Source of the DNA: Treponema sp.
GTDB lineage: Bacteria > Spirochaetota > Spirochaetia > Treponematales > Treponemataceae
Direction of reading: 5' to 3'
Length of the DNA: 64,000 bases
Assembly (NCBI GenBank): GCA_024698325.1
Contig: JAILRG010000132.1
Span: 1 to 64,000 of the forward strand
Positions 29,742 to 58,327 of this stretch are shown one piece after another. Below the pieces are notes generated by a model. That model saw only the letters and a list, made by a program, of their open reading frames with translations, was not told the origin of the DNA and made no database searches. Made by a program: the position numbers and the translations under genes. Position 1 is the stretch's first letter. Each line of letters starts with the position of its first letter.

Positions 29742-29774
29742 AAACAAAAAAAACAGCGCCAAGGATGGCGCTGC
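29742..29774 (-). terminator. Terminator downstream of Fe-ADH
   Basis: Minus strand CAGCGCCATCCTTGGCGCTGTTTTTTTT. Confidence 0.85.
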
Positions 29775-29793
29775 ATACAAAACCAAATGATGC

Positions 29794-29851
29794 GACAGTT
29801 TCCGCAATGCAGAAACTGTCAGAGTCAGCATTACATGGATGTAATGCTGAC
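29794..29851 (-). repeat. Serial hairpin pair in the 3' region of Fe-ADH
   Basis: Minus strand GTCAGCATTACAT-CC-ATGTAATGCTGAC then TCT then GACAGTTTCTGC-ATT-GCGGAAACTGTC. Confidence 0.9.
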
Positions 29852-29854
29852 GAC

Positions 29855-31006
29855 TTATTTCAACAGGCTATTGAAGAGGTCAAGCACGTCCTGCTTTGAA
29901 GCGTCGCGCGGGTTACCCGGTGCACATGCGTCTTTGATTGCGCATTCAGACAGGTAGTCCAAATCCTCAGTCTTTACGATGCCTTTGAGGCTCTGAGGAA
30001 TGCCAACGTCGATAGAAAGCTGGCGCACTGCGTCAACAGCTGCCTTGCGGTACTCTTCCTGGCTCATCTTATCCACGTCTTTTACGCCCATAACGCGTGC
30101 AATCTCGCGATATTTTTCGCCAGAAGCAGGTGCGTTGAATTCCATGACTGTCGGAAGGAGGATTGCACAGGCAACACCGTGGGGTGTGTCGTAGAAAGCG
30201 CTCAAAGTGTGAGCCATAGCGTGGTCAATACCCAGACCAACATTTGAGAAGCCCATACCGGCGATGTACTGGCCCAGAGCCATCTCTTCGCGGCCTTTTG
30301 CATCTCCCTTAACAGAAGCGCGCAGTGAGCGGCCGATGATTTCGATGGCTTTCAGGTGCATCATGTCTGTCATTTCCCAGGCAGCCTTGGTGATGTAGCC
30401 TTCGATAGCGTGTGTCAAAGCGTCCATACCGGTAGAAGCAGCCAGTTTTGCGGGCATAGACATCATCATGTCCGGGTCAACGAATGCTACGAGCGGAATG
30501 TCATGTACGTCAACGCAGACGAACTTGCGCTTTGCCTGAACGTCGGTGATAACGTAGTTGATTGTTACTTCAGCTGCAGTACCAGATGTGGTCGGAACAG
30601 CAAGAATCGGAAGACAAGCGTTCTTTGTTGCAGCAACGCCTTCCAGAGAGCGGACGTCTGCAAACTCGGGGTTTGTCATGATGATGCCGACAGCCTTTGC
30701 GGTATCCATTGAAGAACCGCCGCCGATGGCGATGATGTAGTCAGCGCCGCATTTTTTGCAGGCTGCAACACCGGCAGTTACGTTTTCTACCGGAGGATTG
30801 GGTTTAATGTCTGAATATACTTCGTAAGCCAGTCCTGCATTGTCCAGAACGTCGGTTACTTTTTTAGTCACGCCGAACTTAATCAAGTCAGGGTCGGTGC
30901 ACACAAAAGCTTTTTTCCAGCCGTGTGATTTTGCTTCGTTTACGATTTCGTTGATGGCTCCTTTACCATGGTAAGAAGTCTGGTTCAGCGTAATTCTGTT
31001 TGCCAT
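29855..31006 (-). CDS. Iron-containing alcohol dehydrogenase
   Basis: IAIGGGSSMDTAKAVGII; VPTTSGTAAEVTINYVITD; GIDHAMAHTLSAFYDTPHGVACA. Confidence 0.93.
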   Translation of the reverse strand: MANRITLNQTSYHGKGAINEIVNEAKSHGWKKAFVCTDPDLIKFGVTKKVTDVLDNAGLAYEVYSDIKPNPPVENVTAGVAACKKCGADYIIAIGGGSSMDTAKAVGIIMTNPEFADVRSLEGVAATKNACLPILAVPTTSGTAAEVTINYVITDVQAKRKFVCVDVHDIPLVAFVDPDMMMSMPAKLAASTGMDALTHAIEGYITKAAWEMTDMMHLKAIEIIGRSLRASVKGDAKGREEMALGQYIAGMGFSNVGLGIDHAMAHTLSAFYDTPHGVACAILLPTVMEFNAPASGEKYREIARVMGVKDVDKMSQEEYRKAAVDAVRQLSIDVGIPQSLKGIVKTEDLDYLSECAIKDACAPGNPRDASKQDVLDLFNSLLK

Positions 31007-45849: not shown

Positions 45850-46881
45850 CTACAAGCTGCGTCCCTCGACAGCTGCGTACTTACCGAGTACGCCCATCAG
45901 CTCGTCAAACTGAACCGGCGTCAGGCTCTGCTCGCCGTCGCACAGCGCTTTCTCGGGATTATTATGCACTTCGATAATAAGGCCGTCGGCGCCCACGGCG
46001 ACAGCCGCCTTTGCAAGTGTCGGCACCATCCAGCGAATGCCGCAGGCGTGGCTCGGGTCGATAATGACCGGTAAATGAGTCTCGCGCTTTAAGTACGGCA
46101 CAATGCTCAAATCCAGGCAATTGCGCGTATAATTGTCGAACGTACGGATTCCGCGCTCGCACAAAATCACATTCTCGTTTCCGCTTGCCATGATGTACTC
46201 CGCACTCATCAAAAACTCTTTTACCGTAGCGCTCAAGCCCCGTTTCAGGAGAATCGGCGCTTTCAGTTTGCCCACTTCCTTCAAAAGGTCAAAATTCTGC
46301 ATGTTACGCGCACCAATTTGAATGATGTCCACGTCCTCAAACAGCGGAATCTGGTTGATAGCCATAAGCTCCGTAACAATTGGAAGTCCGGTTTCCTTAC
46401 GGGCAAGCTTTAAAAGCTCAAGACCGTCGGCGCCCAGCCCCTGGAAGCTGTACGGACTTGTCCGCGGCTTAAACGCACCACCGCGCAGGAAACGCGCGCC
46501 GCTTGCCTTTACCGCCTTCGCGACAGCAATCACCTGCTCCTCGGTTTCTACTGAGCAGGGGCCTGCCATTATCGCAACACTTTTTCCGTCGCCGATATCT
46601 GCACCAAGACTGCTGTCAGCACCGTGTACGCGTACCACCGTGTCAGCAGGATGGAAACTGCGGCTAGCCTGTTTGTAAGGCGCCTTAACGCGCTGCACGC
46701 TTTCAACAGCCTCATTTGCCATAAGCTCTTCCGGAACGATACGGCTTGTATCGCCTATTAAGCCAAGAATCGTTACATCAGTACCCTTTGACTCATGAAT
46801 ATCCAGTCCACGGCTTTTAATACCGGCTTTAAGCTCATCAACTTTTGCTTTTGGGGCGTCCTTTTTCAATACAACTATCAT
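45850..46881 (-). CDS. aroF: 3-deoxy-7-phosphoheptulonate synthase (DAHP synthase)
   Basis: MIVVLKKDAPKAKVDELKAGI; VAIMAGPCSVETEEQVIAVAKAVKASGARFLRGGAFKPRTSPYSFQGLG; VIIDPSHACGIRWMV. Confidence 0.95.
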   Translation of the reverse strand: MIVVLKKDAPKAKVDELKAGIKSRGLDIHESKGTDVTILGLIGDTSRIVPEELMANEAVESVQRVKAPYKQASRSFHPADTVVRVHGADSSLGADIGDGKSVAIMAGPCSVETEEQVIAVAKAVKASGARFLRGGAFKPRTSPYSFQGLGADGLELLKLARKETGLPIVTELMAINQIPLFEDVDIIQIGARNMQNFDLLKEVGKLKAPILLKRGLSATVKEFLMSAEYIMASGNENVILCERGIRTFDNYTRNCLDLSIVPYLKRETHLPVIIDPSHACGIRWMVPTLAKAAVAVGADGLIIEVHNNPEKALCDGEQSLTPVQFDELMGVLGKYAAVEGRSL

Positions 46882-46888
46882 TACGTTA

Positions 46889-47021
46889 CTCCTTACATAA
46901 ACTCCGCGCCTAAGGTGCTGCATGGAAGGGCAGCTTTGCTTCCGGCGGGCAACGAATCGCAGTTTTGTCAACGACAAAACCCGCACGTGCCAAAAAGCAC
47001 ATGAGAGTTCTTTTTAGCACG
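46889..47021 (-). repeat. Serial hairpin leader upstream of aroF
   Basis: Hairpins CGTGCTAAAAAG/CTTTTTGGCACG (46986-47021), GTTTTGTC-GTT-GACAAAAC (46962-46980), and GCACCTTAGGCGCGGAGTTTATGTAAGGAG block. Confidence 0.8.
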
Positions 47022-47076
47022 TCTTTTGATTCGTTATATATTTTTTTATGCCACACGACCATGGTTCCGCGGGCAT

Positions 47077-57579: not shown

Positions 57580-57606
57580 CTGCAATAACATTTAAGAAGG
57601 AGCAAT

Positions 57607-57702
57607 GATACTAAAAATGACATCCATGTCATTTTTAGTATCTGCAGTTTTGCTTGCGGCAAAACTGCGGTTCGTTGCATCCATGCAACGCCGCTAACGC
57701 GG
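57607..57702 (+). repeat. Serial hairpin leader upstream of thrH
   Basis: 57607-57642 perfect 17-bp arms around CC; 57644-57668 GCAGTTTTGC-TTGCG-GCAAAACTGC; 57673-57690 CGTTGCAT-CC-ATGCAACG; 57691-57702 CCGC-TAA-CGCGG. Confidence 0.92.
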
Positions 57703-57721
57703 AGTTTATAAGGAGCAGTAT

Positions 57722-58327
57722 ATGTATATAACCTGTCTGGACTTGGAAGGTGTTCTCGTTCCCGAAATCTGGATTGCATTCAGCGAAGCAAGCGGCATTC
57801 CAGAGCTTAAGCGCACCACGCGAGACGAGCCTGACTACAACAAGCTGATGAACTGGAGGATAGGCATCTTAAAAGAGCACGGCTTGGGCTTAAAAGAGAT
57901 TCAGGACGTAATCGCAAAGATTGATCCGCTTCCCGGTGCAAAGGAATTTTTAGACACACTCAGAAGTGAATGTCAGACAATCATCATCAGCGACACCTTT
58001 ACACAGTTTGCCGCTCCATTGATGAAAAAGCTCGGTATGCCGACAATTTTCTGCAACGAGCTTGTCGTCGCACCGTCTGGAGAAATTACCGGATTTAAAA
58101 TGCGCATCGAAAAATCAAAGCTGGCGACCGTAAAAGCACTTCAGTCCATCGGCTATGACACAATTGCAAGCGGAGACAGCTACAACGACCTCGGCATGAT
58201 TGAAGCAAGCAAGGCGGGCTTTTTGTTCCGCACAACGGACAAAATCAAGGCTGATTACCCGAACCTTCCCGCATTCACAGAATACGATGAGTTACTCGCC
58301 GCCATCCGGGAGCAACTGAAAAAATAA
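57722..58327 (+). CDS. thrH: Bifunctional phosphoserine phosphatase/homoserine phosphotransferase ThrH
   Basis: CLDLEGVLVPEIWIAFSEASGIPELKRTTRDEPDYNKLM; GDSYNDLGMIEASKAGFLFR. Confidence 0.92.
   Translation: MYITCLDLEGVLVPEIWIAFSEASGIPELKRTTRDEPDYNKLMNWRIGILKEHGLGLKEIQDVIAKIDPLPGAKEFLDTLRSECQTIIISDTFTQFAAPLMKKLGMPTIFCNELVVAPSGEITGFKMRIEKSKLATVKALQSIGYDTIASGDSYNDLGMIEASKAGFLFRTTDKIKADYPNLPAFTEYDELLAAIREQLKK

Follow-up and report, generated by a model that had tools for sequence, protein, structure and literature searches.

What is the row of back-to-back hairpins in the leader of a thrH-like gene of this Treponema genome, and why does it end at the ribosome-binding site? The leader lies on the plus strand of the window, the 64,000-nucleotide stretch of DNA analysed as a whole. 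The original prediction had placed four hairpins at 57607-57702, and an inverted-repeat scan of the window reproduced exactly the arms of 17, 10 and 8 bp (57607-57623/57626-57642, 57644-57653/57659-57668 and 57673-57680/57683-57690, respectively), each 100% complementary. The hairpins were as described but their extent was not: the unit was found to run from one GGAG (57599-57602), which is now its left border, to another (57712-57715).

Structure of the thrH copy and its relative ahead of aroF

Hairpin 1 (57607-57642) has perfect 17-bp arms with a CC centre and covarying pairs; folded as RNA, its loop is TCCN. Hairpin 2 (57644-57668) pairs GCAGTTTTGC with GCAAAACTGC. Hairpin 3 (57673-57690), CGTTGCAT-CC-ATGCAACG, again has a TCC loop and shows compensatory changes. 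The fourth stem (57691-57702), read from the sequence, is present as predicted but was corrected from CCGC-TAA-CGCGG to four pairs, CCGC-TAAC-GCGG. The right tail AGTTTATAAGGAG (57703-57715) terminates in the element's own GGAG, which serves the thrH-like gene (HAD-family phosphatase, 57722-58327, plus strand) from 6 nt ahead of its ATG at 57722.

A covariance model was built from an alignment of 30 full copies from the same genome and its relatives. The thrH copy, which is among the building sequences, scored 106.3 bits (E 4.8e-25). The leader of aroF on the minus strand (46889-47026), which is not among them, scored 54.4 bits (E 7.9e-12) over 47026-46890, and the kinship of the two leaders that had been noticed earlier was thus confirmed: the aroF leader is a diverged copy, with its GGAG at 46892-46889 and the ATG at 46881. 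The amino-acid theme that the two genes seemed to share is a coincidence, thrH and aroF being two copies among many.

Copy number, distribution and covariation

In the same genome, about 16 clear places matched the thrH leader by BLAST and at least 18 copies were found with the covariance model, the scan that the original prediction had suggested. In the genus, the model detected the element in 128 of 200 genomes, including Treponema berlinense ATCC BAA-909 (G018). Copy counts were drawn from searches and from fetched stretches of genomes. Full-length, high-scoring copies were also present in two neighbouring genera (G278, G333 and G283), and the matches in the remaining genera were mostly weak and resembled the Rfam family TD-2. 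When the right-end pattern was compared with 84,980 species genomes, the matches listed came only from Treponema or other spirochaete records. The copies of T. berlinense differ by a few bases over about 122, stand ahead of unrelated genes and have unrelated flanks, which points to recent spread. Judged from these sequences, the element is a repeat of about 115 nt (112-125 bp) that has become dispersed among the genomes of Treponema from rumen and gut.

The stems are conserved as pairs. In the 30-copy alignment, 91.3% of cells are paired and 14 of the 25 stem pairs have changes on both sides; the covariation score was 0.319, versus 0.094 after shuffling and at most 0.078 when the partners were slid. 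Together with the score of the thrH copy and the number of copies in the genome, this covariation puts the hairpin array far outside what chance would give.

Plasmids and phages were searched for the element and gave no match. The right-end pattern occurs once, at L319:4305-4330, on an IMG/VR contig (IMGVR_UViG_3300032007_004058) classed as viral. An identical insertion of about 60 nt within the hairpin 1 loop (ACATACGCCACTTCGTGTCGTTT...CTTGCGCACAGGAGCATCC) was seen from L279:5740 and from L275:5623 on, and a shorter one in the same loop at L046. In G004, two near-identical Rpn-like nuclease/transposase-type genes, named by eye, each have a copy ahead of them (L049 and L050).

Borders and placement of the copies

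The order of parts is the same throughout the family: GGAG, hairpin 1 with its very regular arms, hairpins 2, 3 and 4, a T-rich tail and (A)GGAG. Of 124 full-length copies, 97 have GGAG at the left end and 113 have it at the right. The TCC of the hairpin 1 loop is conserved in 102 of 110 parsed copies, and the fourth loop base is free.

A same-strand open frame begins within 25 nt downstream of 103 of the 124 full copies. The spacing from the right GGAG to the start is 5-8 nt in 92 of these 103 (mode 6) and overlaps the native Shine-Dalgarno spacing in the same contigs. By reading, nine of the other 21 copies lie ahead of another copy and five ahead of a different repeat type; near each of the last seven there is a short frame, an overlapping start or the end of the contig. 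Intergenic GGAGs outside the copies are found at Shine-Dalgarno positions in 180 cases and elsewhere in 428, so the placement of the element is not that of random intergenic GGAGs. Purifying selection could account for part of this location bias.

Many shorter remnants retain hairpin 4, the tail and GGAG and have lost the 5′ part; the search pattern required the 3′ end, which biases the excess of 5′-eroded over 3′-eroded remnants. Such remnants are consistent with a gene that now needs the GGAG of the element. Truncation of the 5′ end by target priming was considered and rejected: several short copies retain the left GGAG, and internal deletion accounts for them.

Uninterrupted orthologous sites

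The main evidence for the point of insertion comes from orthologous sites that lack the element. When the left flank through its GGAG is joined to the sequence past the right GGAG, an ordinary gene start results. At three loci this joined sequence agrees with an uninterrupted orthologous site, and thrH fits as a fourth. The best is the flgF/flgG junction, where the element breaks up the site in G015 (CAGTAGGAG/TGTTCA...TTTTAGGAG/AAGTAAGTAAATGG) and the site in G003 is unbroken (CAGTAGGAG/AAGTAAGTAAATGG), reading CAGTAGGAGAAGTAAGTAAATGG. The junction is likewise uninterrupted in G200, G074 and the 97% identical G076; this last, the closest relative at flgF/flgG, has GGGG and not GGAG at the site. 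At the second locus the element of G009 is matched by an uninterrupted site in G110, with the flank altered near the junction in G110. At the third, ahead of a phosphoesterase-like gene, G018 has the element and G044, G013 and G163 are uninterrupted. These sites place the insertion immediately 3′ of GGAG.

At thrH, the nearest relative (G122) reads ATGCTACACT..AAGAAGGAG-TTTACG-ATG with no element, and the window reads ATGCTACACT..AAGAAGGAG, then the element, then CAGTAT-ATG; the G122 flank is changed near the junction. Because G122 has this start without the element, the GGAG at 57599-57602 was probably the original Shine-Dalgarno of thrH. The element was ahead of thrH in none of sixteen further relatives checked. 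The thrH leader of G056 (L352) holds a seemingly eroded, hairpin-4-like remnant, ACCGCTAACGCG..AAGGAG; thrH may have received two separate insertions, or this may be an old copy.

A sequence could also pass from leader to leader by ordinary homologous recombination or by gene conversion, with no transposition involved, and the tandem copies that share tails (L014/L019, L067 and L070) do resemble local duplications. However, new sites have only GGAG and its immediate surroundings in common with the element, which is too short, and the uninterrupted orthologous sites show the whole unit gained in one step; we regard this route as extremely improbable.

Dispersal, borders, orientation, the uninterrupted orthologous sites and the paired, covarying stems can all be read directly from the DNA. 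They make it highly probable that the element is a small non-coding mobile repeat which inserts, in coding-strand orientation, immediately 3′ of a Shine-Dalgarno GGAG and supplies a new one with the (A)GGAG at its right end. A mobile or duplicating element had been one of two possibilities in the original prediction, and the dispersed near-identical copies, unrelated flanks, tandem copies and uninterrupted sites support it.

Effect on the downstream gene

The other possibility was a riboregulator that masks the start site. The predicted unpaired probability of GGAG was 0.39 with the element and 0.38 in the joined empty site (n = 79), and on this folding model the start is neither masked nor freed by the element. 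Nor do the downstream genes share a pathway: copies precede genes for a HAD phosphatase, cysteinyl-tRNA synthetase (CysS), a uracil/xanthine permease, ZnuA/ZinT, PGK, ornithine carbamoyltransferase (OTCase), a FabF-type ketoacyl synthase, TIM, a semialdehyde dehydrogenase and FlgG. Masking of the start was therefore abandoned.

The same data bear on the wider idea of a cis-regulatory RNA leader (riboswitch, attenuator or protein-binding) that forms a regulon and has spread as useful regulation. Such a leader would explain why the element sits in the sense of the following gene, why its stems are strongly conserved with covariation and why the TCC loops are kept with only the fourth base free. 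It does not fit a set of unrelated genes, an accessibility of GGAG that is the same with and without the element, a plus strand with no Rfam cis-regulator match at gathering score, or the absence from thrH in all sixteen relatives, and we consider it very improbable. A conserved leader peptide, against which the original prediction had already argued, was rejected as well: the short frames past the left GGAG vary between copies and are often missing.

For the mobile repeat, insertion should be nearly neutral for initiation, as judged from predicted folding and from the GGAG, which stays at normal spacing. On the simplest reading, the element would be able to persist in 5′ leaders by providing the gene with a new ribosome-binding site.

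Relation to TD-2 and other known repeats

The original prediction could assign the hairpins to no known class. That was right for REP elements of the GTAG type, but not for Rfam, since the three large hairpins are the complement of TD-2 (RF03162, clan CL00124, type sRNA). Read in antisense to the gene, hairpins 1-3 scored 58.3 (L022), 52.1 (L021) and 50.9 bits (L036) with this model, above the gathering cut-off of 48.7 bits. Of 16 sources tested, three attain it, and the thrH copy (43.0 bits, E 3.1e-5) and the flgG copy (46.6 bits) fall below it. TD-2 is present in 98 of 244 genomes of the order. Both have hairpins 1-3 in the same order with NUCC/ANGGA loops, the conserved GGA lying in both outer loops on the strand opposite the gene, and both reach high copy number across Treponema-related genera. 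They differ in that the gene-sense strand of the element is the complement of the Rfam strand, and in that the model lacks hairpin 4, the T-rich tail and the GGAG borders. In genera g15-g17, the TD-2 loci read lack both hairpin 4 and the GGAG border, and none is followed by a start codon in the sense of the element; in a more distant family, several TD-2 loci lie directly ahead of a start codon. These comparisons suggest that the form landing on Shine-Dalgarno sites is a variant derived from TD-2.

The covariance model and reading of the sequence also revealed, at 29771-29860 of the window (minus strand), a TD-2-like relative that lacks both hairpin 4 and the GGAG end. It follows a stop codon and stands some 160 nt ahead of pgk. 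The hairpin 3 of this relative, AGCGCC-ATCCTT-GGCGCT, is followed by eight T and could, from its sequence, act as a terminator.

The match to an Rfam sRNA raises the possibility that the opposite strand is the functional one, as a TD-2-type RNA that titrates CsrA by binding it at the ANGGA loops of its hairpins. Besides the match itself (43-58 bits), hairpin 1 on that strand reads UACANGGAUGU in most copies, near the E. coli CsrA SELEX consensus RUACARGGAUGU (quoted in PMC6692469); CsrA is present in four of four genomes tested, and one promoter-like site lies on the minus strand at 57632-57605. However, the promoter scan stayed near shuffle level (3 found, 1.6 expected), and a titrating RNA leaves unexplained both the GGAG borders and the placement ahead of start codons. 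We think this reading unlikely, quite clearly so.

REP/BIME repeats, like the element, are small, high-copy extragenic palindromes with a border tetranucleotide and no coding capacity. They are mobilised by RAYT transposases, whose genes go with the GTAG type, and comprise GTAG- and CGTC-tagged palindromes (PMC3733652, PMC2817692); a GGAG tag is absent from the text of both papers. The element differs in its GGAG tag, its four hairpins and its position in the sense of the following gene at the Shine-Dalgarno. An origin as a GTAG REP moved by RAYT was rejected, the border being GGAG and not GTAG or CGTC, with no RAYT nearby and no repeat-flanked transposase among the Y1 genes sampled. Integron attC sites, suggested by CTTAGGCG and by GCTAAC motifs, were likewise set aside, as the copies precede housekeeping genes without cassette structure. 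We know of no insertion from Shine-Dalgarno to Shine-Dalgarno by the BOX and RUP repeats of Streptococcus pneumoniae. These repeats (PMC3049150) resemble the element in being modular, dispersed and presumably moved in trans.

Proposed mechanism of movement

Members of the IS200/IS605 family transpose as single strands, have asymmetric ends with hairpins and insert 3′ of a short target motif. The asymmetric borders of the element, its strand-specific insertion, its lack of a terminal inverted repeat and the target motif at both ends led us to propose enzymology of this kind by analogy. The element would move as folded single-stranded DNA, and a site-specific enzyme acting in trans would cut 3′ of GGAG. 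Once the element has landed, its right end would be kept as the ribosome-binding site of the gene while the 5′ part erodes. Single-strand transposition would give an excision junction of ...AAGGAG/GCATGATAAAA.

MITEs derived from IS200/IS605 share with the element the asymmetric hairpin ends, the insertion 3′ of a short motif and the lack of terminal inverted repeats, but for the element no matching transposase or autonomous copy was found. Pfam Y1_Tnp had no match in the assembly of the same genome, which is about 90% complete. It occurs in 12 of 59 genomes of the genus, where its presence does not visibly track copy number, and no copies flank the Y1 genes sampled from relatives. The high-copy genomes G057, G063 and G004 are without Y1_Tnp; the enzyme could have been lost, or the assemblies could be incomplete. 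No long, gene-carrying copy was found among the loci examined. Movement as folded single-stranded DNA by a trans-acting, IS200/IS605-like enzyme that cuts at GGAG is possible but rather doubtful, and the mobilising enzyme may be of a kind other than Y1. Pairing of the loop TCC with the GGAG border as a guide was also considered and is weakened by the TD-2 loci, which have the same loops without GGAG borders.

Other repeats at gene starts

A second palindromic repeat of about 150 nt starts after GGAG and ends with ...TTGACTTTTTATGGGAG a few bases ahead of the start codon. It was seen from L065:1671 on (minus strand), from L064:1652 on (plus strand), at L264 and L210 (minus strand) and in the tpiA and pgk leaders of G011 (L120 and L133), and it directly follows the first element in four loci. 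At flgF/flgG in five species (L186, L189, L190, L191 and L195), GGAGGAAGAAGC..hairpin..GCTTCT is inserted past GGAG and ahead of the flgG start and brings no second GGAG; other GC-rich repeats occupy the junction at L187, L188, L192, L193 and L196. Repeats seem often to land at gene starts in this genus. A broader proposal, that the Shine-Dalgarno is a general landing pad in spirochaetes at which at least two palindromic families insert from GGAG to GGAG through an undescribed GGAG-recognising enzyme or nucleic-acid-guided process, is plausible, yet we hold it only tentatively.

Significance of the element

From the comparisons above, the element would be a variant of a known palindromic repeat whose unusual trait is that it lands on Shine-Dalgarno sites and restores them. 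No other mobile element known to us targets the Shine-Dalgarno and restores it in one step, and a search of the open-access literature for a Shine-Dalgarno-targeting and -restoring mobile element found none. The finding also casts TD-2, listed in Rfam as an "sRNA", as a relative of a mobile repeat; which strand is the important one, and which molecule, becomes a question. As T. berlinense is a named and sequenced strain, the claims made here can be tested. By landing in this way, a selfish repeat would gain a large set of near-harmless sites. For its hosts, the element lengthens the 5′ leaders of housekeeping genes, whose ribosome-binding site would then be derived from the element.
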